64,000 nucleotides of DNA. Source: Salinisphaera sp. (GTDB lineage Bacteria; Pseudomonadota; Gammaproteobacteria; Nevskiales; Salinisphaeraceae). Shown piece by piece: positions 213 to 15,207 of the stretch. The stretch spans positions 1 through 64,000 of the forward strand of contig NZ_PBYA01000051.1 of assembly GCF_002729955.1 (NCBI RefSeq), written 5' to 3'. How positions within the stretch are numbered: the first letter of the stretch is position 1; every line of letters starts with the position of its first letter. The notes beneath the pieces were generated by a model. It worked only from the letters and a program-made list of their open reading frames with translations. It searched no databases and was not told where the DNA came from. The translations under genes and the position numbers were made by a program.

Positions 213-240
213 TGACACTGTTTGATGTAACTATTACATC
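213..240 (+). promoter_or_regulatory. Overlapping operator-like sites upstream of the epoxide hydrolase operon
   Basis: Two inverted repeats overlap just before the first gene of the operon. TGACA-N8-TGTAA (213-230) differs by one base from the TGACA-N8-TGTCA sites at 3932, 3959 and 15190. A perfect 7-base palindrome, GATGTAA-CTA-TTACATC, spans 224-240. The sites end only 12-22 bases before the ATG at 252, so a protein bound there would block transcription start or translation. The first site suggests membership in the regulon of the TetR protein at 3247-3921; the second may serve another regulator. Confidence 0.55.
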
Positions 241-251
241 GGACGTGGCCA

Positions 252-1205
252 ATGCCGCAGCAAGACAGCAGAGCCGACAATGCCGACGAGCCCGTCTGGG
301 TTCGCGGCGATGGCGTGAATCTGGCCTGCCATGTCGCAGGCCCATCGGATGCGCCCGTGCTCGTGTTCGTGCACGGCTACCCCGACAACCACGCGGTCTG
401 GGATCGCGTCGTCGCCCATCTGGCCGAGGATTACCGCTGTATTCGCTACGACGTTCGCGGCGCCGGGCGTTCGAGCGCGCCGACCGCGACCTCGGCCTAC
501 CGGCTCGACCACCTGGCCGCCGATCTCGAAGCCGTGATCGACTGGGCCAGCCCCGATGCGCCGGTGCATGTCATCGGCCACGACTGGGGCTCGATCCAGA
601 GCTGGGAGGCCATAACCAACCCGGCACTGGCCACTCGTATCGCCAGCTTCACCTCGATCTCCGGGCCCAGTCTGGACCACGTCGGCCACTGGCTGCGCCA
701 GCAGTGGCAGCGTGATCGCGCTGGTCTGTTCAAACAGCTGCGCAAATCCTGGTACGTGTTCGCGTTTCATCTGCCCGGCCTGCCCTCGCTGCTCTGGCGT
801 GCCGGTCTGGGTCGGCAGTGGCATGCCATCGTCGAGCGCATGGAAGGGGCGCGGCTGGCACGCAACCCCAGCCAGACCGGCGACGGCGCACGCGGCATCG
901 CGCTGTATCGCGCCAACGTCGTGGCCCGCCTTCGCGCCCCGCGAGCGCGCCATGCCCAGATGCCGGTTCAGGTGATCGTGCCCGAACGCGATCCCTTCGT
1001 CGGCCCCGGTTTCGTGGCCGGGCTCGACCGCTGGGTACAAACGCTCACGGTAAAAACCCTCGATGCCGGCCACTGGGCCATACAGAGCGAAGCCGAGACG
1101 GTTGCCGTGCACTGCCGCACGTTCGTCGAGGCCAATCGCGACCGGCTGCCGGCCCCCGGCAGCCGCAAATCATCGCCCACCGAAGCGGCGCGCCCCCGCG
1201 CTTGA
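252..1205 (+). CDS. Epoxide-hydrolase-like alpha/beta hydrolase (EphD type)
   Basis: A 317-residue alpha/beta hydrolase with the epoxide hydrolase hallmarks. The oxyanion motif HGYP lies near residue 40. The nucleophile elbow GHDWGS near residue 110 has Asp as the nucleophile. An acidic residue in ERDPF and the catalytic His in GHW lie near the C-terminus. The lid carries SWYVF and YRAN, where lid tyrosines usually sit in EphD-like enzymes. The expected reaction is opening of an epoxide to a diol; haloalkane dehalogenation is the alternative use of an Asp nucleophile. It is the first gene of a three-gene operon with two PF10118 proteins, the next starting 10 bases downstream. Operator-like repeats sit just upstream. 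No good Shine-Dalgarno precedes the ATG, so the exact start is uncertain. Confidence 0.8.
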   Translation: MPQQDSRADNADEPVWVRGDGVNLACHVAGPSDAPVLVFVHGYPDNHAVWDRVVAHLAEDYRCIRYDVRGAGRSSAPTATSAYRLDHLAADLEAVIDWASPDAPVHVIGHDWGSIQSWEAITNPALATRIASFTSISGPSLDHVGHWLRQQWQRDRAGLFKQLRKSWYVFAFHLPGLPSLLWRAGLGRQWHAIVERMEGARLARNPSQTGDGARGIALYRANVVARLRAPRARHAQMPVQVIVPERDPFVGPGFVAGLDRWVQTLTVKTLDAGHWAIQSEAETVAVHCRTFVEANRDRLPAPGSRKSSPTEAARPRA

Positions 1206-1215
1206 GGAGGTTCTC

Positions 1216-2112
1216 ATGAAGCAGACCACAGTCGACCTGCAACAGGAATTCACCGGTTACAGCGGCCCGGTCATGCCCGAGCGGCGCGACCTGCATTTTC
1301 TGCCGCCGGGCAATCGGATCTGCGACTGGCACCAGGCGGGCCCGAACGTGACCCAGTTCATGAACGCGCTGAGCCTGTTCTTTCCGGCCGGCGAGCGCAT
1401 GTTCATCGATGCCGTGCGAGCCTATCGCGACGAAATCCCCGACCCGGATCTGCGCAAGGCCGCGACCGCTTTCATCGGTCAGGAAGCGATGCACTCGCGC
1501 GAACATATCGAATACAACCGGCTCATGGACGCGGCCGGGCTGCCCGCCAGCGAGCTGGATGCCCAGGTCTGGGCCCATACCGAGTACGTGAAGAACAACA
1601 GCGCGAAAGTCACGCCGCTGCTGATGACCATCGCCCTCGAGCATTTCACCGCGCTCATGGGCGACACCCTGCTGCGTCACCCCGAACAGATGGCCGGCTC
1701 CCAGCCGGACTACGAACGCATGTGGCGCTGGCATGCACTCGAGGAAGTCGAGCACAAGGCCGTGGCCTACGACGTCTACGAAAAATGCGTCGGCCGCGGG
1801 CCGAAAGCCTATGCGATGCGCAGCGCGGTCATGCTGACCACCACGGCCACCTTCTGGCCGCACGTCATGCTGTTCTATCGGCGCCTGGCTGCGGCCGACC
1901 CGGCCTGCGTGAAGGCCGGCTGGCGCGGTCATCTGAAGCTGGCGAACTTCATGCTCGGCCGGCCCGGCTATCTGCGCAAGCTGCTGCCCGAGTATCTGGC
2001 CTATTTCAAATACAGCTTCCATCCCTGGCAACAGAACAACGCGCATCTGCTGGCCGAAATCGACCAGTTGGTGGATGACGCCGAGGCCGCCTACGCCAGC
2101 CACGCGGCCTAG
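1216..2112 (+). CDS. PF10118 protein with di-iron ligand pattern, copy 1
   Basis: A 298-residue member of the family annotated as predicted metal-dependent hydrolase (PF10118). The start is the ATG at 1216, preceded by GAGGAG at 1205-1210. The sequence carries E60, E90xxH93, E142 and E177xxH180, the ligand order of ferritin-like four-helix di-iron oxidases and oxygenases. The motifs read GQEAMHSREH, ALEHFTALMGD and WHALEEVEHK. I infer that an oxygen-activating di-iron role is at least as likely as hydrolysis; no substrate can be read from the sequence. It follows the epoxide hydrolase by 10 bases and precedes a close paralogue, so the three are probably co-transcribed. No signal peptide; a hydrophobic stretch around residues 200-215 could contact membrane or lipid. 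Confidence 0.75.
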   Translation: MKQTTVDLQQEFTGYSGPVMPERRDLHFLPPGNRICDWHQAGPNVTQFMNALSLFFPAGERMFIDAVRAYRDEIPDPDLRKAATAFIGQEAMHSREHIEYNRLMDAAGLPASELDAQVWAHTEYVKNNSAKVTPLLMTIALEHFTALMGDTLLRHPEQMAGSQPDYERMWRWHALEEVEHKAVAYDVYEKCVGRGPKAYAMRSAVMLTTTATFWPHVMLFYRRLAAADPACVKAGWRGHLKLANFMLGRPGYLRKLLPEYLAYFKYSFHPWQQNNAHLLAEIDQLVDDAEAAYASHAA

Positions 2113-2188
2113 TTCATTCACCCCCGCCCCGTTTATCCAGAACACGCCGTATGAAACGGCATACCGACCCCGATCCAAGGAGGGCACC

Positions 2189-3109
2189 ATGAGCAAGAAC
2201 GCTTCCGATGTCGTAAAGAACAACACGAGCGGTGCACAGCGCGAATTCCCGCACAGCGAGAACGTCGCGGTCATGCCCGAGCGGCGCGACCTGCATTTCC
2301 TGCCGCCGGCCGACCGTATCTGCGACTGGCACAAGGAAGGCCCGAACGTCACCCAGTTCATGAACGCGCTGAGCCTGCTCTTCCCGGCCGGTGAGCGCAT
2401 GTTCATCGACGCGGTGCGCAGCTATCGCGACCAGATTCCCGACCCCGATCTCAAGAAGGCCGCGACCGCCTTCATCGGCCAGGAAGCCATGCACTCGCGC
2501 GAGCATATCGAGTACAACGAGCTCATGGCGCAGGCCGGCCTGCCGGCCCACAAGCTCGACCAGTTCACCTGGAACCTGCTCGACTGGATCAAGCAGCGCA
2601 GCCCGAAATCGCTGCCGCTGGCGGCCACCATCGCGCTGGAACACTACACCGCGCTGATGGGCGACATGCTGCTGCGCTATCCGGAAATGATGGCCGGCTC
2701 GCAGGAGGATTTCGAACGCATGTGGCGCTGGCACGCGCTTGAGGAAGTCGAGCACAAGGCCGTGGCCTACGACGTTTACGAAAAATGCATCGGCCGCGGG
2801 CCGCGCAACTGGGCAGAACGCACCTTTGCCATGTCCCTGGCCACCGCGCTGTTCTGGCCCGTGCTGCTCAGCTTCTACTGGCAGATGACCCAGGCCGACG
2901 AGAAGTGTCGCAAGGAAGGCTGGCGCGGCCACCTGAAGATGCTCAACTTCACCCTCGGCAAACAGGGCTTCATCCGCCGCATGGTTCCCGAGTGGCTGAG
3001 CTATTTTCAGTACAGCTTCCACCCCTGGCAGCAGAATAACGCCGATCTGCTGGCCGAGCTGGACGGCCTGGTCGATGATGCCGAGGCGGCCTACGCCACC
3101 CACCACTGA
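2189..3109 (+). CDS. PF10118 protein with di-iron ligand pattern, copy 2
   Basis: A 306-residue tandem paralogue of the preceding gene, with a strong AAGGAGG at 2177-2183 before the ATG. All putative ligands are retained: E69, E99xxH102, E151 and E186xxH189. The core from PERRDLHFLPP to the C-terminal SFHPWQQNN is nearly the same in both copies. The first 25 residues and the segment after the second ligand helix differ (WNLLDWIKQRSPK against WAHTEYVKNNSAK). Retention of every ligand argues against decay; the pair may form a hetero-oligomer or act on different substrates. The operon ends in a strong terminator 35 bases after the stop. Confidence 0.75.
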   Translation: MSKNASDVVKNNTSGAQREFPHSENVAVMPERRDLHFLPPADRICDWHKEGPNVTQFMNALSLLFPAGERMFIDAVRSYRDQIPDPDLKKAATAFIGQEAMHSREHIEYNELMAQAGLPAHKLDQFTWNLLDWIKQRSPKSLPLAATIALEHYTALMGDMLLRYPEMMAGSQEDFERMWRWHALEEVEHKAVAYDVYEKCIGRGPRNWAERTFAMSLATALFWPVLLSFYWQMTQADEKCRKEGWRGHLKMLNFTLGKQGFIRRMVPEWLSYFQYSFHPWQQNNADLLAELDGLVDDAEAAYATHH

Positions 3110-3143
3110 TCGCCCGGCCGGTCACAAGCCCAAAGGCAGTACC

Positions 3144-3174
3144 AATGGCGCGGTGATTACCGCGCCATTTTTTT
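3144..3174 (+). terminator. Strong intrinsic terminator of the hydrolase/PF10118 operon
   Basis: AATGGCGCGGT and ACCGCGCCATT form a perfect 11-base-pair stem with a GATT loop, followed by a T-run to 3174. It lies between two convergent units, the PF10118 operon (+) and the TetR gene (-). It is the clearest rho-independent terminator in the window. Confidence 0.92.
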
Positions 3175-3246
3175 GGGCGCTTATCCACTCGGCACGCACA
3201 CAGATGATCTCTGGGCGGGCGCCGGCCGCTCTGCTTGGGTGCCGGA

Positions 3247-3921
3247 CTAAGAGGCCCTGTCGCTGCCCTGCTCGGCCTGACGTGCCATGGCGACATAAAG
3301 CGCCAGACTCGATTCCACGATCACGTCCAGCGGCTCGCGATAGCGGTTGAGCGTCCAGTACATGGCGATATGAATGGTCGAACCCACCAGCCCGGTGGAC
3401 AGTACGCCGGCATCGGTGCCGCTGTCCTCGCCGAGCACGAAGATGTTGCTGACCAGCGCCTGCAGCGTACGGGTGAAGTTCTGGGTGGTTTCCCGATACA
3501 GGCGATCGATCTCGCCACTGATGCCGAAAATCTCGATCAGCAGGATTCGCGCCGTACCGGGCTGGTGATACATGGTTTCGAAAAACACCCGCAGCCCGGC
3601 CCGCGCGGTCGCCTCTGCGTCGCTGGGCGCGTTATCGATCGCCGCGACCACGTCTTCTTCCAGCCGCCCCACGAGCGCGCGATACACCTCGGCAAACAAG
3701 GCTTCGCTGTTGGCGAATGACTCGTAGAAATAGCGTTCGGTCAGACCCGCCGTCCGGCACAGCGACTTCACCGTGGCGCCGCGAAAACCGTCGCGACCAT
3801 AAACCGCGATCCCGGCTTCGATGAATTGCGCCCGTCGCCGGCTGCGCCGTTCGTCGAGGCTGCGCCCGCCATAGGCACGTCCGTTACCGGCCGCCGGCGC
3901 CGATGAAGATGCATTGCTCAT
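3247..3921 (-). CDS. TetR/AcrR-family repressor of the lipid-oxidation module
   Basis: A 224-residue TetR regulator. The helix-turn-helix lies near residues 25-75 (RRAQFIEAGIAVYGRDGFRGATVKSL, then LTERYFYESFANSEALF). The remainder is an all-helical ligand-binding domain with no similarity I can name. It is divergent from a short-chain dehydrogenase; their shared intergenic region holds two TGACA-N8-TGTCA palindromes. The same sequence, exact or with one mismatch, occurs before three other lipid genes nearby, so I infer that this protein controls itself and those genes. The ligand is unknown; an acyl-CoA or hydroxylated lipid is plausible. The N-terminal 20 residues are Ala/Gly/Ser rich and probably disordered. 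Confidence 0.85.
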   Translation of the reverse strand: MSNASSSAPAAGNGRAYGGRSLDERRSRRRAQFIEAGIAVYGRDGFRGATVKSLCRTAGLTERYFYESFANSEALFAEVYRALVGRLEEDVVAAIDNAPSDAEATARAGLRVFFETMYHQPGTARILLIEIFGISGEIDRLYRETTQNFTRTLQALVSNIFVLGEDSGTDAGVLSTGLVGSTIHIAMYWTLNRYREPLDVIVESSLALYVAMARQAEQGSDRAS

Positions 3922-3931
3922 GCCGCCATAT

Positions 3932-3976
3932 TGACATTATTTGTTGTCAAACGTAATTTGACATCGCGCGTTGTCA
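3932..3976 (+). promoter_or_regulatory. Double TetR operator between the TetR gene and SDR1
   Basis: Two palindromes of identical design, TGACATTATTTGTTGTCA (3932-3949) and TGACATCGCGCGTTGTCA (3959-3976), have centres 27 bases apart. Each is TGACA-N8-TGTCA. TTGACA hexamers overlap them on both strands (for example 3931-3936 on +), so the sites coincide with likely -35 elements of both divergent genes. Binding would repress both. Part of the symmetry could come from divergent -35 boxes, but the identical 8-base spacing and the copy at 15190, which is not a TTGACA, favour an operator. Confidence 0.7.
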
Positions 3977-4083
3977 CTTTGACGATCGCCGAACGGTGGT
4001 GCTGATCGCCCGTCCGGACACGGGCCCGGCCGCTATGAAAAGCGATAGCAGCCACCGCCCACGGTTCACGAAAAGGAACAGGC

Positions 4084-4896
4084 ATGAAGGATTTGAATAA
4101 CAAGGTCGTGGTGATTACCGGCGCCGGCTCCGGCATCGGACGCAGCCTGGCCACTGCCTGCGCACAGCGCGGCGCTCGCCTGGCGCTGTGCGACGTCAAT
4201 ACGACCGGCCTGGAAGAAACACGTCGCGAATGCGGCGATGCCGCGGTGCTGACCGCATCGGTGGACGTATCCGACCGCGCGGCGGTCGAGGCATTTCGTG
4301 ACGAGGTGATCGCCGAGTACCAACAGGTGGATCTGGTGGTCAACAACGCCGGCGTGGCCCACTCCCAGACCATTGAAGACGCCACCTACGAAGACTTCGA
4401 ATGGATCATGGGCATCAATTTCTGGGGCGTGGTGCATGGCACCAAGGCCTTTCTACCGGCGCTGAAGAAAAATTCGGGCAGCGCACTGGTCAACGTATCC
4501 AGCGTGTTCGGACTGATCAGCCTGCCCACCCAGGGGACCTACAACGCCACCAAGTTCGCAGTTCGCGGCTTTACCGAGGCATTGCGTCATGAAACGGCGG
4601 ACAGCGGCCTGCACGTCATGTGCGTTCACCCCGGCGGCATCAAGACCGGAATCGCCCATTCCGCGCGCTTCTATGTCGGCCCCGACGGCAGCGACGACCA
4701 GGAAAAGGCCGCCGGCGACTTCGTCAACAAGCTCGCCCGCACCACCCCCGATCAGGCCGCGCGCAAGATTCTCGACGATCTGGCCAAACGCAAGGGCCGT
4801 TGCCTGATCGGTATCGATGCCCAGATCATCTCGGCGATCTCGCGGCTCATGCCCGTCAACTACTGGCGGGTGATGAACCGGATGATGCCGGGCTAA
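4084..4896 (+). CDS. Short-chain dehydrogenase/reductase (SDR1)
   Basis: A 270-residue classical SDR. The cofactor motif TGAGSGIG is at residues 13-20, NNAG near 88, the catalytic Ser in VSSVFG near 139, and YNATK near 152-156. D38 after the second beta strand suggests NAD(H) preference. The C-terminal extension is hydrophobic (IISAISRLMPVNYWRVMNRMM), as in SDRs that act on lipid or alcohol substrates at membranes. The start ATG has AAGGAAC 9 bases upstream. It is the likely target of the divergent TetR gene and a paralogue of SDR2 at 14301-15152, which has the same operator. Substrate unknown; oxidation of a secondary alcohol or diol from the epoxide hydrolase step is a reasonable guess. Confidence 0.85.
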   Translation: MKDLNNKVVVITGAGSGIGRSLATACAQRGARLALCDVNTTGLEETRRECGDAAVLTASVDVSDRAAVEAFRDEVIAEYQQVDLVVNNAGVAHSQTIEDATYEDFEWIMGINFWGVVHGTKAFLPALKKNSGSALVNVSSVFGLISLPTQGTYNATKFAVRGFTEALRHETADSGLHVMCVHPGGIKTGIAHSARFYVGPDGSDDQEKAAGDFVNKLARTTPDQAARKILDDLAKRKGRCLIGIDAQIISAISRLMPVNYWRVMNRMMPG

Positions 4897-4951
4897 AACG
4901 CCGGCCCGCCGGCCGGGGCATGCCGGACAACGTGCACAGTCCCAAGTGAGC

Positions 4952-4988
4952 AAAAAAACGCCGGGCGCATCGAGCGCACCGGCGTTTT
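4952..4988. terminator. Bidirectional intrinsic terminator
   Basis: AACGCCGG and CCGGCGTT form the outer stem (4957-4986), with an inner GCGC/GCGC pair. An A-run (4952-4958) lies on the left and TTTT (4985-4988) on the right, so it can end transcription from SDR1 (+) and from the thioredoxin-like gene (-). Confidence 0.85.
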
Positions 4989-5047
4989 CGCAGGGGGCGG
5001 GCGGGTCGTTCTACGCCCTGTTCAGGCGCGGCCCACCCTTTCGCGAA

Positions 5048-5611
5048 TCAGGCCGCCTTCCATTTGATGCTGCAGCCCTGACTGGGCACCTGCACGTCTT
5101 CGGGGATCATGTCGCCCTCAAGCAGGGCGTCCAGCGACGCACGCAGTTCGGCACCGGTCACCGCCACCCCGTTCTTGGGGCGCGACTCGTTGAACTGGCC
5201 GCGATAGGCGCATTTGCCGTCGCCGTCGAACACGAAGAAATCGGGCGTGCAGACGGCGTCGTACGCCTTGGCCACCGCCTGGCTTTCATCGTAGAGATAG
5301 GGAAAGGCGAACTCGCGGCTTTCAGCGAACACCTGCATCTGCTCGGGGCCATCCTCGGGGCGCTCGGCCACATCGTTGGAGGAAATCGCCACGAAACCGA
5401 TGCCCTGCGGCTGGTAGTGGTTGGCCACCGCCACAATTTCGTCGACGATATGAAGAACGTAGGGGCAGTGGTTGCAGATGAACATCACCACCGTGCCTTT
5501 TTCGCCCGCGACGTCCTTGAACGAAACCGTCTGGCCGGAGACGGTGTCCGGCAGGGAGAAATCGGGCGCCTTCTTGCCCAGCGGCATCATCGTCGAGTCG
5601 GTTAGCGACAT
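5048..5611 (-). CDS. Thioredoxin-fold redoxin (AhpC/TSA-like), CNHC motif
   Basis: A 187-residue cytoplasmic thioredoxin-superfamily protein. I chose the ATG at 5611 because AAGGA precedes it; a longer frame upstream lacks a site. The redox motif C-N-H-C follows the first core strand near residue 47 (MFICNHCPYV), and the cis-Pro segment CTPDFFVFD lies near residue 120. It belongs to the group usually annotated as thioredoxin family protein or alkyl hydroperoxide reductase/redoxin; its partner is not known. It sits alone between convergent SDR1 and the CoA-transferase-like gene. A link to the oxidative chemistry of the region is only positional. Confidence 0.8.
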   Translation of the reverse strand: MSLTDSTMMPLGKKAPDFSLPDTVSGQTVSFKDVAGEKGTVVMFICNHCPYVLHIVDEIVAVANHYQPQGIGFVAISSNDVAERPEDGPEQMQVFAESREFAFPYLYDESQAVAKAYDAVCTPDFFVFDGDGKCAYRGQFNESRPKNGVAVTGAELRASLDALLEGDMIPEDVQVPSQGCSIKWKAA

Positions 5612-5697
5612 GAGCGATCCTTGTTGGTAAATACTGCTTCGCAGTTTAGCCACTGTGTCCAGCCAACCCAAACCCGCCGCGCCAGCCGCGGCTGGCG

Positions 5698-6879: not shown

Positions 6880-6969
6880 GGTCTATCCCTGATTTGTCGA
6901 ATACCTTCAGCTGCCCGTCGAACGTGCAAACACACTCGAACAGGCAGGCCCCTTACGGCGCTGCGCTCC

Positions 6970-7113
6970 AGCAAGCAGGTTGTGCGCGAATGAACGCGAA
7001 AACAGGCGAATGAGATGAAAGACAGATCGTTCGAACGTCGACTGCGCAGCTGTTCGCGCCGCCTGCCGCACTGTGTACATCACCAATCGCTCCTTTATTC
7101 GCGTTCGTTGGCG
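6970..7113. repeat. Two inverted copies of the AATGAACGCGAA dispersed repeat
   Basis: Between the CaiB gene and fadE there is no convincing ORF. The stretch holds one copy of a dispersed repeat (6970-7010, core CAAGCAGGTTGTGCGCGA followed by AATGAACGCGAA) and a second in inverse orientation (7091-7113, core AACGAACGCGAATAAAGG). Related copies occur near 41404, 41680 and 63456. Short frames crossing it are compositional artefacts. Confidence 0.6.
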
Positions 7114-7132
7114 GGCCCATAAAGCGCTGACC

Positions 7133-9379
7133 TTATGCCGCCTCGCGCCGCGCGGCATCGGCCGTATCGACCGCCCGGGCAAAGAATTCGGCTTCGCTGA
7201 ATACGTCGACATCGATCGCGGCCAGACGCGCCGCGCGGGCTTTGGCCACGGCCGCGGCTTCGTCCGCGTTCAGCACGCCGGCATCGGCTGCCTCCTCGGC
7301 CAGCCCGTCCGGATCACCGCCGGGCAAACGCCCATCCTTCTGTGCCGCCTTGATACGATCGACCAGCGGCGCGGCTTCATTGACCTGCTTGAACGCAGCG
7401 AACAACCGCCCCACACCCGACTCGCTGTTTTCCGGCATGAAGATATCGGCGTTGAGTCGCTCGCTCTGGGCATCCAGGCGTTGCGATACGCCGGCACAGG
7501 CCACCGCCATACGATCATCGGGCAGGCGTGCCAGCCGGTTCACCCGCAGCAACGGCAGGGCGACCCAGCGCAGCAGGGTGCCGAGCGGGCCATCGAAGTT
7601 CTCGTAAATGCCTTCGAAGGCCTCCTGCACCCGGGCGAGGCTGAGCCGCAGCGCGTAGTCGACCAGCACCCGATCGCCCGGCTGGCGGCCTTCGGCCTCG
7701 AAACGCTTGAGCGTGGAAAAACCCATCAGCATCCAGGCCAGTGCATCCGCATAGCGGCCGGTGAGATTGCCGCGCTTCTTGAGCCTGCCGCCCACGAAGA
7801 ACAGCGCCAGATCGGTGAACAGGGCAAAGCGCGAGGCGGCCCAACCGAGCTTCTTGTAGTAGCGACGCGTGTGCCGGTCGACGTCGGGCACCCGTACGAA
7901 CGCGCCGCGCGTCAAACCGTGGCCAAGCGTACGCCCCATGTTGGCGAAGAAGTGGCCGACCCAGCCACGCATGCCTTTCGAAAACGCCCGCGCATCGTCG
8001 TTTTCTACCGCCTTGACCACATCCAGCGCATGCGGGTGGCAACGAATCGCGCCCTGACCGAACACCATCAGCGTGCGGGTCATGATGTTGGCGCCTTCCA
8101 CGGTAATCGCCACCGGCGCGCTGCAATAGCCGCGCCCGATGATGTTGTTGGGCCCCTGCATGACGCCGGCCCCGGAAAACACGTCCATGGCATCGGTCGC
8201 GCACTGGCGTGCCAGCTCGGTGGTATAGGCCTTCATCACCCCCGATACGACCGGTGGATTGATCCCGTCATCCACCGCGCTACAGCCGAGCACGCGGGCG
8301 CCTTCGCTCATGTAGGCCAGCGCATTTACACGCCCGACAGGCGTGGCCACGCCTTCCATGCGCCCGATCGCCAGCCCGAACTGCTGGCGGACCATCGAAT
8401 AGGCCCCGGTCGCTGCCGCGATCGTACGCATGCCGCCCACCGCCGAGGCAGGCAGCGACACCATGCGCCCGCCCGCCAGGCTCTCCATGAGCATGCGCCA
8501 GCCGCTGCCGGCCCGTTCGCGCCCGCCCAGGATATTGTCGGCGTTGACCACGACGTTCTCACCGATAAGCGGGCCGTTGGGAAACGCTTCGCCGATCGGC
8601 TCGTGGCGATCGCCCTGCTTGAGGCCCGGCGTACCGGCATGGATGAGTACGACCGTAATACCCGGCGCCTCGCCCTTGCCGAGCAGGTTGTCCGGGTCGC
8701 GCAGGCGACAGGCCAGCGATATCAGATTGGCGACCGGGCCCAGGGTGATATAGCGCTTGGCGAAATTCAGCCGCAGCGAGACGTCGCCCTTGTCGTCGCG
8801 AAAGGCCTCGGCATCGGCGGTGATCGAGGCGGCATCGGAGCCGGCGGTGGGTTCGGTCAGCCCGAAGCACGGCAGATAGTCGCCGCGGGCAAGACGCGGC
8901 AGGTAATGGTCTTTCTGGTCGTCGGTGCCGTACTCGACCAGCAGTTCCGCAGCACCCAGCGTGTTCGGGATGACCACATAGGTCGATAGAATCGCCGAGT
9001 GCGGTGTGACCTTGGCCATGACCGCCGAGCGCGCCAGGGTCGAAAAACCCTTGCCACCGTAAGCCTTGGGGATGATCAGCCCGAAAAACCCCTGTGCTGC
9101 CATGAAGTCGATAAGGTCATCGGGCACCCGCCGGCTCATGGCGATCTGGTTGCAGTCGGCACGCGAGAGCAGCTCGTTGACGGGCCCGTCCATGAACGCC
9201 TGCTCTTCGGCGCTGAGCTGTCCGTAGCGGGCATCGAGCATGCGCTTGAAGTCCGGGTGGCCGGAAAAGAATTCCCCGTCGATCCAGACATCGCCGGCCT
9301 CCAGGGCCTGGCGTTCGGTATCGGAGATACGCGGCAACACCTCGTTGGCCTGCATCCACTTCATCAGTTTTTCGAACAT
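7133..9379 (-). CDS. fadE: Long FadE-type acyl-CoA dehydrogenase
   Basis: A 748-residue FAD-dependent acyl-CoA dehydrogenase of the long FadE class (the E. coli enzyme is about 814). It catalyses the first, alpha-beta desaturation step of beta-oxidation. The ACAD core carries FGLTEPTAGSDAAS near residues 172-186 and the segment VEGANIMTRTLMVFGQGA near 435. A C-terminal DUF1974-type extension of about 290 residues, with hydrophobic helices, marks the family. I chose the ATG at 9379, with GGGAG 8 bases upstream; a GTG three codons earlier is possible. It stands alone: the downstream CaiB gene is 253 bases away and fadIJ starts about 390 bases upstream. No TGACA-N8-TGTCA site is seen before it. 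Confidence 0.87.
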   Translation of the reverse strand: MFEKLMKWMQANEVLPRISDTERQALEAGDVWIDGEFFSGHPDFKRMLDARYGQLSAEEQAFMDGPVNELLSRADCNQIAMSRRVPDDLIDFMAAQGFFGLIIPKAYGGKGFSTLARSAVMAKVTPHSAILSTYVVIPNTLGAAELLVEYGTDDQKDHYLPRLARGDYLPCFGLTEPTAGSDAASITADAEAFRDDKGDVSLRLNFAKRYITLGPVANLISLACRLRDPDNLLGKGEAPGITVVLIHAGTPGLKQGDRHEPIGEAFPNGPLIGENVVVNADNILGGRERAGSGWRMLMESLAGGRMVSLPASAVGGMRTIAAATGAYSMVRQQFGLAIGRMEGVATPVGRVNALAYMSEGARVLGCSAVDDGINPPVVSGVMKAYTTELARQCATDAMDVFSGAGVMQGPNNIIGRGYCSAPVAITVEGANIMTRTLMVFGQGAIRCHPHALDVVKAVENDDARAFSKGMRGWVGHFFANMGRTLGHGLTRGAFVRVPDVDRHTRRYYKKLGWAASRFALFTDLALFFVGGRLKKRGNLTGRYADALAWMLMGFSTLKRFEAEGRQPGDRVLVDYALRLSLARVQEAFEGIYENFDGPLGTLLRWVALPLLRVNRLARLPDDRMAVACAGVSQRLDAQSERLNADIFMPENSESGVGRLFAAFKQVNEAAPLVDRIKAAQKDGRLPGGDPDGLAEEAADAGVLNADEAAAVAKARAARLAAIDVDVFSEAEFFARAVDTADAARREAA

Positions 9380-9768
9380 GGGTCGCACTCCCGAGCCGCT
9401 GTGGGCTTCTCCGTTGAGGCGTTTGGGCGCGGGTTACGCCGAGCACGCCAATAAATCACCCGATCAGTAGCAGACACCCGCGCTGATCGAAGGCATTCCT
9501 GATCTTTCCAACTGCGCTAGCGGCCATTACATGACCTCGAACGCTTAATTCGGCCTCGCTCTTCAAGTCGTTTATCCACAGATTTCGCTGATTGAAGGAT
9601 TTGAAAAATCAGTCGGTCATTCGGCTGTCGAGCGGTCGCCCGATCGAAGGGCGCGGCTACAAAAACGCGCTTCACCTGTATGAATCCATGTCCGCCTGAC
9701 AACCAACTAAATCTGCGGATAGAAGTCTTTGACGAACGAAGCCGTACTACGGTCATCGCCGGCCTGCC
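9380..9768. other. Intergenic region with a DnaA box and repeat-like sequence
   Basis: No gene is apparent. TTATCCACA at 9572-9580 is a perfect DnaA-box consensus. It is part of a CCACAGATTTCGC string that also occurs at 63611. A short inverted repeat, CTGATT…AATCAG, lies at 9588-9612. The fadE promoter must lie in the left part, but I cannot place it with confidence. Confidence 0.4.
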
Positions 9769-12015
9769 CTACACGCTGTAGAAGCGACGATGCGAGTCGC
9801 CGCTCGCCTTGGCCATGGTCACGAGAACGGGCGCCGGATCGAAACGCGGGCCGTGGCGCTCGGCGAGCGCCTGTAGCCGGTCCACCACGTAATCGATGCC
9901 CAGCGTGTCGACATAGCGAAACGGCCCACCGGCGAACGGCAGAAAGCCGAGTCCGAATATGGCGCCAATATCGCCCTGCATCGGATCGTCGATAATGTGC
10001 TCGGAAAGACAGTGCGCGGCTTCGTTGACGAACAGTAGCGTGCAGCGCTCCGCGATTTCCGCCGCGCTCGGCGTGCGGCCCTGCGCTCGCTCATCCCTCA
10101 GCAGCGTGGCCAGCTCGGCGTTGATCGGCCGCTTGCCACCCTTCTTCTTGTTCGCGGTGTAGTCGTAGAACCCCTTGCCGGACTTGCGCCCGAGATAGCC
10201 GGCCTCGATCATCCTTGCCGACGCCGCCGGTGGGGTCATGCGCTCGCCGAAGGCCGCTTCCAGAATCGGGCCGACCTTGACGCCGACATCCACGCCGACC
10301 TCGTCGAGCAGGGCCAGCGGACCCACCGGGAAACCGTAGTCGACCAGCGCTTCATCAACGGCGCCTACGCTCGCACCTTCCGCGAGCAGGCGCGCGGCCT
10401 CGTTGAGATACGGCGACAGCACACGGGTGGTATAGAAACCGGGCCCGTCGCGTACCACGATCACCGTCTTGCCCTGGGCCTTGCCGAAAGCCACGGCGGT
10501 GGCGATGGTCTTTTTCGAGGTCTTGTCGGTGGCAATGATCTCGAGCAGCGGCATTTTCTCGACCGGCGAGAAATAGTGCAGGCCGATGACGTTCTCGGGT
10601 CTTTTTGCCTGAGCGGCGATCTGCGCGATCGGCAACGACGAGGTATTGGTGGCAAAGATACAGTCGGCATTGCCCTGGGCGTCGGCCGCGGCTTCGATAT
10701 CGGCAAGCATGGCCTGCTTGAGTTCGAGATCCTCGAACACGGCTTCGACCACGATATCCGCGGCCCCCATGCCGCTGTAGTCCGTGGTCGCCGTGACCTG
10801 ATTCAGGCAGCGATCGGCCGCGGCCCGTGTCATCGCCTTTTTCGCCACCCGTTTGTCGTAGACGGCGCGTACATGATCCATGCCGCGGGCCAGCCCCTGG
10901 GCGCTGACGTCCTTGAGTCGTACCGGCAAGCCGGCCTTGTCGACGGTGACCGTGGCAATCCCCGCACCCATCAGCCCGGCGCCGAGCACGCCCACCTGGC
11001 GTACCTCGCGTGGCTTGACGTTACGGGCCACGAAGGTAGCTTTCTTGAGCGCTTCGGTGGCGTGATAGACATGGCGCAACGCTTTCGATACCGGGCCCGT
11101 GGCCAGTTCGCCAAAAGCCTGGGCCTCGGCGCCATAGCCGGCCTGCATGCCCCGGGCATAACCGGTGGCCACCACGTCGATAATGCGTTCGGGCGCAGGA
11201 TAGTGGCCATGGGTCTTGGCACGCAGCGTTTTGCGGGCCTGATCGAACAGCAGGCGACGACCGGCCGGATTGTCCTCGAGTGCGGCCTGGCTGAGGCCGG
11301 TGACGCCGGCGCCGAGACGCGCCCGCGCACGGCGCAGGGGCGAGGTCGCGGCGGTCGTCGAGCGCTTGCCGGCGATTCTTGCCTGGCGAATGGCTTCGGC
11401 GAGCAAGGCTTCCGGCGCCACCACCGTGTCGATCAGGCCGATGCGCCGTGCCTGTGCGGGGCGCAGCTTGCGCCCGGTGAGCATCAGGTCGAGCGCGGTG
11501 GCAATTCCCACCAGCCGCGGCAGGCGCTGGGTGCCCCCGGCGGCCGGCAGCAGGCCCAGCATCACTTCCGGCAGCCCGAGCACGGTCGCCTCACTATCGG
11601 CGGCAATACGGACATCGCAGGCCAGGGCCATTTCCAGGCCGCCGCCCAGACAGCTGCCGTCGATCGCGGCGACCACCGGTACATGCAGCTTCGACAGCCG
11701 TCGGTAGCCGGCCTGGCCCCGCTTCGACAGGGCTTCGAACTCGCTGGCGAGATACCCGTGATCGAACAGGCCGATATCCGCACCTGCCATGAACGAACCC
11801 GGCTTGGCCGAGATCAGCACCACGCCAATCACTTCGGTGTTGTGCTCGATCAGCTCGAGCACGCGATCGAAGGCCGCTGCGAAGTCGGCGTTGATGGTGT
11901 TCTGGCGCGCGCCGGGCACGGCGAATCGCAGAATGAGGATGCCATCGTCGCGCTGTTCTAGCTCGAAGAGTTCTTCGGCGGCCGTGGACGATTCTTGGGT
12001 GGCGGTCTTGCTCAT
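9769..12015 (-). CDS. fadJ: FadJ/FadB-type enoyl-CoA hydratase/3-hydroxyacyl-CoA dehydrogenase
   Basis: A 748-residue bifunctional alpha subunit of the beta-oxidation complex. The N-terminal crotonase domain (about 1-200) has GSCLGGGLEMAL with E128 and GLPEVMLG with E150, the two acid/base residues. The NAD-binding domain starts at GAGLMGAGIA (345-354), with catalytic H480 in GLHYFSPVEK. C-terminal dimerisation domains complete it. It hydrates 2-enoyl-CoA and oxidises L-3-hydroxyacyl-CoA. It follows fadI by 44 bases on the same strand, and I infer an operon and a hetero-complex with that thiolase. The order fadI-fadJ and the thiolase type favour FadJ naming over FadB. Confidence 0.9.
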   Translation of the reverse strand: MSKTATQESSTAAEELFELEQRDDGILILRFAVPGARQNTINADFAAAFDRVLELIEHNTEVIGVVLISAKPGSFMAGADIGLFDHGYLASEFEALSKRGQAGYRRLSKLHVPVVAAIDGSCLGGGLEMALACDVRIAADSEATVLGLPEVMLGLLPAAGGTQRLPRLVGIATALDLMLTGRKLRPAQARRIGLIDTVVAPEALLAEAIRQARIAGKRSTTAATSPLRRARARLGAGVTGLSQAALEDNPAGRRLLFDQARKTLRAKTHGHYPAPERIIDVVATGYARGMQAGYGAEAQAFGELATGPVSKALRHVYHATEALKKATFVARNVKPREVRQVGVLGAGLMGAGIATVTVDKAGLPVRLKDVSAQGLARGMDHVRAVYDKRVAKKAMTRAAADRCLNQVTATTDYSGMGAADIVVEAVFEDLELKQAMLADIEAAADAQGNADCIFATNTSSLPIAQIAAQAKRPENVIGLHYFSPVEKMPLLEIIATDKTSKKTIATAVAFGKAQGKTVIVVRDGPGFYTTRVLSPYLNEAARLLAEGASVGAVDEALVDYGFPVGPLALLDEVGVDVGVKVGPILEAAFGERMTPPAASARMIEAGYLGRKSGKGFYDYTANKKKGGKRPINAELATLLRDERAQGRTPSAAEIAERCTLLFVNEAAHCLSEHIIDDPMQGDIGAIFGLGFLPFAGGPFRYVDTLGIDYVVDRLQALAERHGPRFDPAPVLVTMAKASGDSHRRFYSV

Positions 12016-12059
12016 AAAAGATGCTCGCAGTGGAATCGAGATCGGTGGGCGGCTAACGC

Positions 12060-13418
12060 TCAGTCGCGTTCCAGAATCATGGCGGCACCGATGCCGCCGG
12101 CCGCGCAGGCAGTGGCCAGGGCCAGCCCACCGCCACGGCGCTTGAGCTCGTGGGCGGTCTGGATGAGGATGCGTGCGCCGGTGGCACCGAAGGGATGGCC
12201 GAAGGCGATCGAGCCACCGTTGACGTTGAGAATGTCGCGGTCGACCGTGCCCAGCGCTCTGCGCCCCGCCATCTCTTCGAGATAGGTCTTCGATTCCATA
12301 CCACGAATATTGGCCTCGACCTGGGCGGCAAACGCTTCGTGCATATCGATCAGGGTGAGATCGGATAGCGACAGGCCCGCGCGTTCGAGCGCGACGGGAG
12401 CAGCCAGTACCGGGCCCATCAACAGATCGCGGGCCGGCGTCTTCGCAGCAAAGGCATAGCTGCGGATATAAGCCAGCGGCTCGTAGCCGAGCGCCTTCGC
12501 CCGCGCTTCGCTCATGAGGATCATGGCCGCGGCGCCGTCGGTCAGCGGGCTCGAGTTGGCAGCGGTCACACTACCGTTGGCCCGATCGAATATAGGCTCG
12601 AGGCGGTCGTAGCCCGAGCGTTCGCTGTTCGTGCGTACCAGGTTGTCGTCGCTCACGGGAACGGTCCTGCCGTCGGCGGCCACGAACGCGGTCATGCGCT
12701 GGGCGTTGAGACGCCCGTCCGCGAGTGCTGCGGCTGCATTGGCGTGGGAGGCATGGGCGAAGTCGTCCTGTTCGGCACGGCTCACGCCCCAGGTCTTGGC
12801 CATCTGCTCGGCGGATTCACCCATCGTCTTGCCGGTGGAATACTCGGTGATCGACGGCCGGCGGGGGAGAAGGTCGAGCGGGCGCAGCCGCGACAGGATA
12901 CGAAGACGATCACGGCCGTTCTTTGCCTGCGATACGTCCCGCAGCGCATCCGAAAGACGCTTGGACAGGGGCACGGCAATATCGGACGTCGAATCGGTGC
13001 CCCCGGCCATCACCACGTTCGCGTGGCCGAGCGCGATCGCGTCCGCGCCACTGGCCGCGGTCTGAAAACTGGTCGCACAGGCCCGGGTGATGGAATAGGC
13101 ATCGGTCGCCATATCCATGCCCGATGCCAGCACGATTTCGCGGGCGATGAACGGCGCCTCGGGCTTCATGATCGTCATGCCGAAGATCGCCTGTTCGATT
13201 TCGCTGGCGGCCAGTCCCGCTCGTGCCAGCACCTCCGCGGCCGCCATCGCCCCCAGGTCGATCGCATTCTGGTCGCGAAAGGCGGTTGCGATACGCGTGA
13301 ACGGCGTACGCACGCCGGCCACGATCGCGATCCGGCCGTTCGGCCCCCGCATCCCGGGGGCAGGCGCTTTGGCCGTGCTTGTCTTGCTACGGGTCGCGGT
13401 CGCGCTTCTACTGCTCAT
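12060..13418 (-). CDS. fadI: 3-ketoacyl-CoA thiolase (FadI type)
   Basis: A thiolase that cleaves 3-ketoacyl-CoA to acetyl-CoA and a shortened acyl-CoA. The nucleophilic Cys is in ITRACATSF, with GHPFGATGAR for the His and CAAGGIG near the C-terminus for the second Cys. About 452 residues from the ATG at 13418; upstream starts at 13427 (ATG) or 13445 (GTG) would add a Ser/Thr-rich head. I prefer 13418 because a weak GGA lies 8 bases before it and because inverted repeats begin at 13450, very close to the GTG. It is first in the fadIJ operon and divergent from a TetR gene at 13605. Confidence 0.88.
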   Translation of the reverse strand: MSSRSATATRSKTSTAKAPAPGMRGPNGRIAIVAGVRTPFTRIATAFRDQNAIDLGAMAAAEVLARAGLAASEIEQAIFGMTIMKPEAPFIAREIVLASGMDMATDAYSITRACATSFQTAASGADAIALGHANVVMAGGTDSTSDIAVPLSKRLSDALRDVSQAKNGRDRLRILSRLRPLDLLPRRPSITEYSTGKTMGESAEQMAKTWGVSRAEQDDFAHASHANAAAALADGRLNAQRMTAFVAADGRTVPVSDDNLVRTNSERSGYDRLEPIFDRANGSVTAANSSPLTDGAAAMILMSEARAKALGYEPLAYIRSYAFAAKTPARDLLMGPVLAAPVALERAGLSLSDLTLIDMHEAFAAQVEANIRGMESKTYLEEMAGRRALGTVDRDILNVNGGSIAFGHPFGATGARILIQTAHELKRRGGGLALATACAAGGIGAAMILERD

Positions 13419-13449
13419 GGGCGTCATCCAACTTTTTTCAGACACGATC

Positions 13450-13465
13450 TGTAACTTTAATTACA
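13450..13465. promoter_or_regulatory. TGTAA-N6-TTACA inverted repeat before fadI
   Basis: TGTAACTTTAATTACA has 5-base arms with 6 bases between, in the AT-rich gap separating fadI from the divergent TetR gene. A related half, GTGTAATTTTATGTTCAC, lies near the TetR start (13569-13586). These are candidate operators for the local TetR (13605-14219). TGTAA and TTACA also occur in the palindrome at 224-240, with a 3-base spacer. Confidence 0.45.
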
Positions 13466-13514
13466 CTTTAGGATATGGAGAATCATCTCCTGTTCGCGCC
13501 CTATCTTTAGTCAA

Positions 13515-13532
13515 TGCCATTACGCAATGTCA
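13515..13532. promoter_or_regulatory. TGCCA-N8-TGTCA site over the fadIJ -35 region
   Basis: TGCCATTACGCAATGTCA matches the TGACA-N8-TGTCA operator at 9 of 10 fixed positions. Read on the minus strand, its TGTCAA end (13528-13533) is a perfect TTGACA, positioned to serve as the -35 of fadIJ. This places the fad operon in the proposed regulon of the TetR protein at 3247-3921. Confidence 0.5.
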
Positions 13533-13604
13533 ATAATAATTTCGAATAGAACGAATGCCTGATACAAAGTGTAATTTTATGTTCACCGTGAGAGCGCTTT
13601 ATCC

Positions 13605-14219
13605 ATGAGCCATTCGCCCCGTCCTTCCGAAAAAACACGACAGGGCGCAAGTGCAGCCGCTCGCCTGCGTATCGAGGCAGCCGCGCTGGATTTGTTCGCC
13701 GAGCGGGCCTTTCACGAAGTGCGTCTGGATGAGATCGCCCGCGCTGCCCGCTCCTCGCTGCAGACCATCTATCGCCACTACGGCGACAAGCAGGCCCTGC
13801 TCGATGCCTGCGTACTGCATTGGGCGAATGCGCTGGCCGAGCGCATGAGCGATCACCTGATCGGGATCGAGACCTACAAGGACCGGCTACGGAAGGTGTT
13901 CTGGGTGGTACTCGACTTCTTCGAACAGCACCCGAAGGTTGCCCGCATGATTCTGGGATCGGTCTACCCGGGCGCCATGCGCCACGACGTGACCGACCAG
14001 CAGCGCCGCCTGACCAATCTGTTTCTGGAGGTGCTGGCCGACGGGCGCGAGCGCGGCATCCTCAACGATCAGGTCAGCGAGACCATCCTGCTCGACTACT
14101 TCTATGGCGTGCTGGCCCGACTGATCCAGATGCAGAGCATGCGCAGGCAGGAGCCACCGCTGACCGCCCAGGTCAACGTGCTCTTCGATATGCTCTGGCG
14201 AGCCATCGCGAAACCATGA
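13605..14219 (+). CDS. TetR-family regulator divergent from fadIJ
   Basis: A 204-residue TetR protein. The DNA-binding domain covers about residues 18-65 (RIEAAALDLFAERAFHEVRLDEIARAA, then SLQTIYRHYGDKQALLDAC). The C-terminal half is helical, with no recognised ligand signature. Its divergent position next to fadIJ and the TGTAA-type repeats between them suggest control of fatty-acid oxidation, with acyl-CoA as a likely inducer. It is clearly different from the TetR at 3247, so the locus has two regulators. Confidence 0.85.
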   Translation: MSHSPRPSEKTRQGASAAARLRIEAAALDLFAERAFHEVRLDEIARAARSSLQTIYRHYGDKQALLDACVLHWANALAERMSDHLIGIETYKDRLRKVFWVVLDFFEQHPKVARMILGSVYPGAMRHDVTDQQRRLTNLFLEVLADGRERGILNDQVSETILLDYFYGVLARLIQMQSMRRQEPPLTAQVNVLFDMLWRAIAKP

Positions 14220-14300
14220 ATGCACGGGGCAACCGCCCGGCGTCGTACAGCATCCAACGCGGCACCCTGCGGCGGGCGCCGCCGACCTATCGGTACGCCC

Positions 14301-15152
14301 TCAGTCTCGGGCGGTCGTGGCCGACGGGTCCTGCGTCGTGAAACGGTTAATGAAACCCAGGCCTTTTGTATAGCCGGTCGGCAACAGTCGTTTGAGCCGC
14401 CATACGACACGCGCATCCAACTGCGGCAGCACATAGAGCTGGCCGCGATCGAGTCCGGCGAGCGCACTCTTGACCACGCTCTCGGCCGATACGCCGCCCC
14501 AGCGCATCAGATTGTCGGCGATCTTCGAAGACGAGGCGCTGATCCGGCCCGCCTTCATGATGTTGGTCTGTACGAACGTCGGGCACAGCGCGGTCACGCG
14601 AATCGGCGTATCGGCCAGTTCGGCCGCCAGGGTTTCGGTCACCGCCAGTACCGCGGCCTTGCTCGCATTATAGGCGCCCATGCGCGGCGCGGCGGCAAAG
14701 CTGGCAGTGGAAGCCACGTTGATGATGCCGCCCTGGCCGGCTTCGCGCAGGATCGGAGCAAATACGTGACAGCCGTGGATCACGCCCCACATGTTGATGT
14801 CGAGCACCCAGCGCCAGTCGTCCATGGACATGTCGCCGATCGCATCCCCGCCGGCGCCCACGCCAGCATTGTTGATGACCAGATCGGGCCGGCCGTCGAA
14901 CCAGTCGATCGCGGTGTCGGCAAGTTTTTCGACGTCGCTGAGTCGGGTGACGTCGCAGACCGTGGCCAGCGCACGCCCGCCCGCCGCCTCGATCTGGGCG
15001 ACGGTGGCCTCGGCCAGTGCGGCATCGATATCGGAACACACCACCGCACCGCCGCGGGCCGCCAGCGCTACTGCAAAGGCCTGACCGATACCGCTACCGG
15101 CCCCGGTGATCACGGCATGGGCGCCGTCGGAAAGTCGCTTGGATCGAAACAT
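14301..15152 (-). CDS. Short-chain dehydrogenase/reductase (SDR2)
   Basis: A 283-residue classical SDR. TGAGSGIG lies at residues 16-23, D41 after beta-2 suggests NAD(H), NNAG is near 94-97, Ser is in VASTAS and the catalytic pair in YNASK near 160. Like SDR1 it ends with a basic and hydrophobic tail (VVWRLKRLLPTGYTKGLGFINRF), suggesting a lipid or membrane-associated substrate. The promoter holds the best TGACA-N8-TGTCA palindrome of the window. I infer co-regulation with SDR1 and the PF10118 operon. Confidence 0.85.
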   Translation of the reverse strand: MFRSKRLSDGAHAVITGAGSGIGQAFAVALAARGGAVVCSDIDAALAEATVAQIEAAGGRALATVCDVTRLSDVEKLADTAIDWFDGRPDLVINNAGVGAGGDAIGDMSMDDWRWVLDINMWGVIHGCHVFAPILREAGQGGIINVASTASFAAAPRMGAYNASKAAVLAVTETLAAELADTPIRVTALCPTFVQTNIMKAGRISASSSKIADNLMRWGGVSAESVVKSALAGLDRGQLYVLPQLDARVVWRLKRLLPTGYTKGLGFINRFTTQDPSATTARD

Positions 15153-15189
15153 GCTGCTCCCGCTGGCCGTTGCAACGACCTGTTTATTC

Positions 15190-15207
15190 TGACATCAATC
15201 GATGTCA
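15190..15207. promoter_or_regulatory. TetR-type operator of SDR2 (perfect 7-base arms)
   Basis: TGACATC-AATC-GATGTCA is a perfect palindrome with a 4-base centre, 38-55 bases before the SDR2 start. Its fixed positions equal those of the two operators at 3932-3976, about 11 kb away. It is not built on a TTGACA hexamer, so it is independent evidence that the sequence is a protein-binding site. Confidence 0.7.

Follow-up and report, generated by a model that had tools for sequence, protein, structure and literature searches.

Which protein reads the palindrome TGACA-N8-TGTCA that recurs near lipid-oxidation genes of a Salinisphaera sp., and which genes does it control? The stretch of DNA analysed here, referred to as the window, comprises the first 64 kb (64,000 nucleotides) of contig NZ_PBYA01000051.1 (C51 in our numbering) of assembly GCF_002729955.1. 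It carries five such sites, three of them exact, together with the gene for a TetR-family protein, TetR1. The comparisons described below make it highly probable that TetR1 binds these palindromes, most likely as a repressor and autoregulator of a regulon of Baeyer-Villiger monooxygenase (BVMO), short-chain dehydrogenase (SDR), PF10118 and hydrolase genes, with a weaker link to beta-oxidation.

The palindrome and the homologues of TetR1

To relate the palindrome to its putative reader, we used 80 loci that a protein-level scan with the TetR1 alignment, blind to the DNA pattern, retrieved from named genomes; the records are named mostly as gamma-, beta-, alpha- and deltaproteobacteria. An exact palindrome was present within 350 bp upstream of the TetR1 homologue in 63 of the 80 (56 of the 71 outside Salinisphaera), and a palindrome with at most one mismatch in 70, two such sites being found in 41; these counts are not independent, because many loci come from close relatives (e.g., several Limnobacter). 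Spacers of 0 to 7 and 9 to 20 nucleotides gave two matches in total, one each at spacers 3 and 16, and the reversed pattern was absent upstream of all 80 homologues. Adjacent sites stood 27 bp apart, start to start, in 28 of 40 neighbouring pairs. Several Moraxellaceae loci carry TGGCA-N8-TGTCA instead. In tblastn searches with the window genes, a relative of the flavin monooxygenases (FMO) or BVMOs was detected in 24 of the 80 loci and an SDR in 40. One locus of the proteobacterial TetR1/SDR type lies in a record named Pedobacter sp. MAG (L125), probably through a binning error.

In the window, the five sites described in an earlier note were located at the coordinates and with the mismatches reported there. 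The exact form occurred three times, against a mean of 0.07 in shuffled sequences (none of 100 shuffles reached three), and the form with up to one mismatch six times, against a mean of 0.87 (none of 100 reached six); with up to two mismatches there was no excess (14 found, 15.63 expected). The expectation that such a pattern would arise well below once in 64 kb by chance is therefore borne out for the exact form but not for the one-mismatch form. The sixth one-mismatch match, at 20041-20058, lies inside a coding frame (19970-20923) and is probably fortuitous. The whole genome (3,837,150 bases in 58 contigs) holds six exact sites and four of the reversed-pattern control. Three of the six fall within the first 15.2 kb of the window; with random placement of six sites, the probability of at least three in that stretch, which was picked post hoc, would be about 1e-6. 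With up to one mismatch, the genome yielded 35 sites against 25 for the control, so this class is uninformative by number and needs conservation for belief. The reversed pattern, ACTGT-N8-ACAGT, resembles the LexA box, and its genome counts (36 in 14 Salinisphaera genomes) probably overstate chance for that reason.

These figures bear on the possibility that the sites are only coincidences with TTGACA −35 boxes or chance palindromes. TTGACA does coincide with two of the five window sites, as the earlier note had rightly cautioned, and the one-mismatch class shows no clear genome-wide excess. However, several classes share the inverted TGTCA half and a spacer of exactly eight, although the spacer itself differs in sequence (the 91 exact sites at the homologous loci comprise 69 distinct sequences), and other spacer lengths are nearly absent there. 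The spacer specificity leads us to reject this explanation, to which we attach virtually no weight.

The recognition helix and the palindrome occur together. The presence of the helix in all 80 loci is not evidence, since the scan selects on short peptides and every locus carries AGLTERYF; the unselected sets are 13 Salinisphaera proteins, from a whole-protein search, and 30 loci from the family of Acinetobacter described below. The helix LTERYFYESF was found in 13 of 13 and 30 of 30, respectively. We also read 6 of 21 matching plasmid records. The relatives with LTERYFYESF, from Acinetobacter (A. baumannii) and Cupriavidus, have the exact palindrome (2/2), and it is absent at the four with other helices (LSRRQFYEEF, LNDRYFYAAF, LSSRQFYEEF and LSAKYFYETF), two from Rhodococcus, one from Burkholderia and one from Nocardia. 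Where the palindrome would stand, Rhodococcus pyridinivorans (L196) has TGGAAAC-N4-GTTTCCA. On this plasmid the distant TetR (LSAKYFYETF) adjoins an FMO-SRPBCC-SDR-hydrolase run. Sequence set A2 retains 40 of 47 sequences, one having been dropped for a stop and six others unchecked.

TetR1 itself contains a PF00440 TetR_N helix-turn-helix (26.8 bits, cut-off 24), and its structural model has nine helices, in line with the all-helical TetR fold of about nine helices and a C-terminal regulatory domain, with a mean predicted local distance difference test score (pLDDT) of 89.2 and a predicted template modelling score (pTM) of 0.84. Among the matches listed, the closest solved folds are Rv0078 (Z 20.8), Bacillus FadR (Z 20.3) and FasR (Z 19.1), and EthR is also included. 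The model thus predicts a TetR fold with confidence; fold likeness speaks for the fold and not for the function. TetR1 scores far below the NCBIfam cut-offs for FasR (42 bits against 330) and FadR (29.1 against 200).

Conservation in Salinisphaera and layout of the locus

A search of 14 Salinisphaera genomes (numbered G000 and upwards) detected a TetR1 orthologue (56-100% identity) in 13, the highest-identity named homologues including those of S. shabanensis, S. halophila and S. orenii. A record named Endozoicomonas sp. G2_2 (L112) falls in this genus set and carries the locus; its name looks wrong. The 14 genomes hold 51 exact sites, and 41 of them stand at recurring targets by gene context, a classification made after the sites were seen: 17 at tetR1, 13 at FMO1, four at a DUF445 gene near a third TetR gene and an acyl-CoA synthetase gene, two each at SDR2, at an SDR-FMO operon and at an SDR/saccharopine-dehydrogenase-like pair, and one at FMO2. 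The refuting outcomes named in the earlier note, as far as sequence comparison could address them, did not appear: the sites of related genomes are not randomly placed, and palindromes are retained ahead of orthologous genes while their spacers vary.

FMO1, a flavin monooxygenase gene of the Baeyer-Villiger type, is preceded by one of the exact sites of the Salinisphaera sp. genome, on contig C2. Since FMO1 loci were fetched for holding an exact site, their count is stated per genome's exact sites: in 13 of 14 genomes, the few exact sites include the one at FMO1. For the other genes, sites were sought by gene and not by pattern, and the counts cover the genomes in which the gene or its start was available. 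The hydrolase operon has a one-mismatch site in 12 of 12 genomes, at −38 to −44 relative to the start (by extrapolation if the alignment does not reach back that far), and its right half is TGTAA in 11 of them. Upstream of SDR1 a double site is present in nine of nine genomes; both copies are exact in seven, and in two one is exact and the other has one mismatch. In 10 of 13 genomes the tetR1 promoter has one or more exact sites, and in G009 it has a one-mismatch site. At SDR2 the site is exact in two of two genomes (G000 and G011). The fadI/tetR2 gap holds a one-mismatch site in six of the seven genomes with a tetR2 orthologue; G006 has a two-mismatch match only. The tie to beta-oxidation proposed in the earlier note stands in part: the fadI/tetR2 site is conserved, but it is always weak and inexact.

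The features of the locus are listed in Table 1. The assignment of the sites to promoter gaps holds, with the addition that the gap containing 13515-13532 is the promoter gap of tetR2 as well as of fadI. The two sites next to tetR1, previously described as flanking its start, do not flank it: both lie in the 162 bp that separate the divergent genes tetR1 (start 3921) and SDR1 (start 4084). The product of 252..1205 aligns with the hydrolase half of PRK05855, a fused NCBIfam model, with a score below the model cut-off.

Table 1. Genes and putative operators of the window (coordinates are window positions).
Feature	Position	Strand	Remarks
Operator, one-mismatch form TGACA-N8-TGTAA	213..230		Ahead of alpha/beta-hydrolase (EH)-PF10118 operon; pattern match
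Alpha/beta-fold hydrolase ('epoxide hydrolase')	252..1205	+	Abhydrolase_1
PF10118 'predicted metal-dependent hydrolase', copy 1	1216..2112	+	
PF10118 'predicted metal-dependent hydrolase', copy 2	2189..3109	+	
TetR1, proposed operator reader	3247..3921	-	PF00440; recognition helix AGLTERYFYESF
Operator, exact, TetR1/SDR1 gap, tetR1-proximal	3932..3949		Conserved in the genus and beyond
Operator, exact, TetR1/SDR1 gap	3959..3976		27 bp from the 3932 site
SDR1, short-chain dehydrogenase	4084..4896	+	Divergent from tetR1
FadE-type acyl-CoA dehydrogenase	7133..9379	-	Context
FadJ	9769..12015	-	Context
FadI thiolase	12060..13445	-	Codon model favours start at 13352
Operator, weak one-mismatch form, fadI/tetR2 gap	13515..13532		
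TetR2, rival reader and possible target itself	13605..14219	+	PF00440
SDR2, short-chain dehydrogenase	14301..15152	-	
Operator, exact	15190..15207		37 bp ahead of SDR2 start codon

The position of the weak site in the fadI/tetR2 gap raises the question of whether TetR2, or a paralogue encoded elsewhere, reads the palindromes and TetR1 is merely a target. In its favour, TetR2 is a TetR protein beside fatty-acid genes. Nevertheless, an orthologue (at least 55% identity) is present in 7 of 14 genomes only; the remnant in G003 is broken by stops, and G001, G009, G010 and G012 carry only a 46-51% paralogue. The FMO1 site persists in genomes without an intact TetR2, as does the hydrolase site where the start is available, and in other classes the palindrome accompanies homologues of TetR1. 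The tetR2 gap also holds a TTACAC...GTGTAA pair of its own in three of the six genomes read (the window included). In the window this inverted pair, AATTACACTTT and AAAGTGTAATT, lies at 13457-13467 and 13567-13577, about 100 bp apart, and is possibly the operator of TetR2 itself. Mainly from the absence or decay of TetR2 where the sites persist, we consider it largely excluded as the reader, with very little probability remaining.

A further alternative is that the sites are read by TetR3, a paralogue encoded beside acyl-CoA synthetase genes, or by a protein outside the TetR family. A TetR3-type protein occurs in 14 of 14 genomes, with a helix that is similar but of a different kind (VSTRHFYEQF wherever it was read), and in four genomes exact sites precede the DUF445 gene near tetR3. 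Yet the tetR3 loci have an exact site in 0 of 14 genomes, and a one-mismatch site near tetR3 in 4 of 14 (G000, G005, G007 and G011). TetR3 would also leave unexplained the tie to TetR1 homologues in other classes and the pattern at almA described below. We therefore judge this alternative quite unlikely. In L062, L065, L080 and L085 we observed a conserved run composed of the DUF445 gene, a second short gene (Abi_alpha, PF14337, in L062), a long-chain acyl-CoA synthetase gene, tetR3 and a gene for a large acyl-CoA dehydrogenase.

Elsewhere in the genome of this Salinisphaera sp., the two exact sites on contig C56 have no convincing target in their surroundings. Of its 29 inexact one-mismatch sites, three are in the window and 19 were fetched with their surroundings. 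The one-mismatch site at FMO2 is backed by an exact counterpart in G005, and C53:56306, near tetR3, recurs with one mismatch in 4 of 14 Salinisphaera genomes. A TGTAA form like that of the hydrolase operator (G000:C3:10018-10035) stands between bacterioferritin-like and RppH-like genes, about 420 bp from the next downstream start, and was left as chance.

Target genes in other genera and the almA promoter

A genome-wide search for the exact pattern in 12 genomes outside Salinisphaera gave 48 sites; judged by position, 20 belong to the tetR1 promoter and 28 do not. The latter form 27 stretches, and eight of them have the start of a BVMO, SDR, PF10118, acyl-CoA dehydrogenase or TetR1-like gene no farther than about 350 bp away; the same classes were found at 0 of 20 control stretches with the reversed pattern (Fisher p 0.014). 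The controls are 20 of the 65 reversed-pattern sites in nine of these genomes, drawn from six of the nine, and the Fisher tests ignore the relatedness of genomes. An initial choice by eye, made without sight of the genes, comprised 20 of the 27 stretches and gave 8/20 (p 0.003), the remaining seven giving 0/7. In L127 a further site, outside the distance rule, lies between an SDR gene and an FMO relative. Sites precede SDR2-like, PF10118 and FMO-SDR genes in Limnobacter parvus and PF10118 in Zhongshania, and a double site precedes FMO in Hydrocarboniphaga effusa. Several genomes, among them those of Zavarzinia aquatilis and Archangium violaceum, have no exact sites besides the two at tetR1, so the wide regulon is not universal.

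The A. baumannii record has nine exact sites, eight of which were inspected; their targets include an AlmA-like gene, the TetR1/SDR gap and a weakly related SDR (26%). The AlmA-like protein is so named from the likeness of its N-terminus to that of AlmA. In A. venetianus RAG-1, the start of almA was mapped by rapid amplification of cDNA ends (5' RACE), and that report gives TTGTGT as the −35 and TTTAAT as the −10 element (PMC11784139). Both hexamers occur 16 bp apart at A. baumannii almA, and TTGTGT is enclosed by the palindrome.

We extended this observation to the family that includes Acinetobacter, in a search centred on Perlucidibaca aquatica that covered 119 genomes; the inclusion of Acinetobacter is indicated by the return of a near-identical A. 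baumannii AlmA. This family is Moraxellaceae in GTDB, and NCBI taxonomy places Perlucidibaca in Perlucidibacaceae. AlmA was matched in 80 of the 119 genomes at E <=1e-100 (down to about 48-50% identity) and TetR1 in 48 at <=1e-25, all 48 being among the 80 with AlmA. The best 30 matches of each were examined. An exact palindrome was present upstream of almA in 27 of the best 30 loci (in L295, 45 bp ahead of the aligned start), and upstream of 24 of the best 30 TetR1 loci. The three almA loci without it are those of G123, G041 and G118, and the last two are the only genomes of the 30 lacking a TetR1 match (association of the almA palindrome with TetR1, Fisher p 0.007, uncorrected for relatedness). 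The proposal that TetR1 is the natural reader gains support from this small pattern of co-loss, together with the palindrome upstream of 63 of the 80 homologues and its absence at relatives with other helices.

FxGxxxHxxxW[PD] is the fingerprint of type I Baeyer-Villiger monooxygenases. It is present in 13 of 13 FMO1 loci and 25 of 30 almA loci, and FMO1 is related to solved BVMOs, including phenylacetone monooxygenase (1w4x, E 4.5e-79). The fingerprint was not detected in either the FMO2 locus (L068) or the two SDR-FMO loci (L059 and L072). FMO2 (L068 and L009) is a second flavin monooxygenase with an operator upstream, and L068 is its complete copy.

The proposed regulon and its relation to known systems

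From the sites, their conservation, their gene contexts, the match between helix and operator and the co-occurrence of the two, we infer DNA binding by TetR1, repression, a ligand and a pathway. TetR1 belongs to a TetR subfamily that has the helix LTERYFYESF and is spread over Proteobacteria. Its operator would be TGACA-N8-TGTCA (in its fuller form, TGACAWYRNNYRWTGTCA), and each 18-bp palindrome would be read by one TetR1 dimer. At its own promoter, usually with one palindrome or two about 27 bp apart, TetR1 would control itself and often a divergent SDR or BVMO gene, and two dimers at that distance may make this promoter sensitive. The dispersed targets would comprise a BVMO-type flavin monooxygenase (FMO1 in Salinisphaera, almA in Acinetobacter), SDRs, PF10118 proteins and an alpha/beta hydrolase, and the weak site at fadI/tetR2 would join beta-oxidation to the regulon. 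Repression would be lifted by a compound of the pathway, and the forms at the hydrolase operon and fadI/tetR2, conserved as weak, may give a graded response.

Regarding the sign of the regulation, the operators stand 20-100 bp ahead of the start codon at most targets (about 60-155 bp ahead of SDR1) and overlap promoter-like elements at tetR1 and almA. Repression is the likeliest mode because the sites overlap or adjoin promoter elements. TetR1 could instead read the sites as an activator, or act both ways: FasR, a fold relative, is an activator by its NCBIfam name. Against activation, the A. baumannii palindrome covers the inferred almA −35, and the distance between site and start codon is mostly no more than about 100 bp. 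We consider activation or a dual mode rather unlikely, though to be kept in mind, and retain repression by TetR1 as the preferred reading.

Several observations, besides the name of FasR, weigh against this reading. In Salinisphaera, G006 (87% complete) has sites although TetR1 was not found there, G001 and G010 have TetR1 but no palindrome at tetR1, the fadI and hydrolase sites are never exact, and 10 of the 51 exact sites have no recognised target. The same holds for 19 of the 27 stretches in other genera and for five of the eight A. baumannii sites inspected. Among the 80 homologues, 17 lack an exact upstream palindrome and 10 lack even a one-mismatch form, yet the helix is present in all, and in G123, which encodes TetR1, the palindrome is missing from both almA and tetR1. 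A separate point concerns the weight of the result: a study of A. oleivorans DR1 reports that this strain relied on AlkB enzymes and that almA contributed negligibly to its use of long-chain alkanes (PMC5658608), which argues against a large role of almA in all Acinetobacter.

The closest folds listed for TetR1, Bacillus FadR, mycobacterial FasR and Rv0078 (EthR2), are TetR regulators of lipid genes, and the structure titles describe FadR with stearoyl-CoA and FasR with C20-CoA. TetR1 is only 16-22% identical to them in the fold alignments and, as mentioned, falls below the FasR and FadR family cut-offs. In the pairs EthR-EthA and MekR-MekA, a TetR gene adjoins a Baeyer-Villiger monooxygenase gene. 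TetR1 shares this gene pairing, and EthR is also among its fold matches, whereas the TetR1 regulon is dispersed and spans several classes. Two regulators of almA are described in PMC11784139: AlmR, a repressor in Alcanivorax dieselolei with an Ig-like domain, and APR1, an AraC-type (AraC/XylS) activator in A. venetianus. Both act on the gene that bears the palindrome here, and these descriptions set them apart from TetR1, a TetR protein.

The gene set, with the BVMO-related FMO1 accompanied by SDR, hydrolase and beta-oxidation genes, fits subterminal alkane oxidation, in which long-chain secondary alcohols and ketones are converted via an ester to fatty acids that feed beta-oxidation. In Thalassolituus oleivorans on n-C28, a BVMO, an esterase and an alcohol dehydrogenase rise together, and subterminal oxidation was proposed from proteomic data (PMC6304351); these enzyme classes are those of the putative TetR1 regulon. 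The passages of that paper on these enzymes name no regulator or operator, and the phrase 'metal-dependent hydrolase' is absent from its text. Among the papers listed in literature searches on the operator, on TetR regulators of Baeyer-Villiger enzymes, on PF10118/COG3687 and on TetR in connection with almA, none had a title or opening of the abstract describing this regulator or operator, and none was a study of PF10118 function; these searches reached few subscription papers, and an earlier description is possible.

In its widest form, to which we give an even chance, the proposal would be that the (subterminal) oxidation of long-chain ketones is governed across Proteobacteria by a single TetR subfamily with a single operator, that TetR1 directly represses almA in Acinetobacter through an operator enclosing the −35, that PF10118 is a step of the pathway, and that the operator kept the regulon together while its genes were scattered. 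According to PMC11784139, few studies have addressed how almA, which serves the use of long-chain alkanes, is regulated. The present result would supply a candidate almA repressor, a base-by-base operator and a list of putatively co-regulated genes, and would place PF10118 in one circuit with BVMO, SDR and hydrolase genes.

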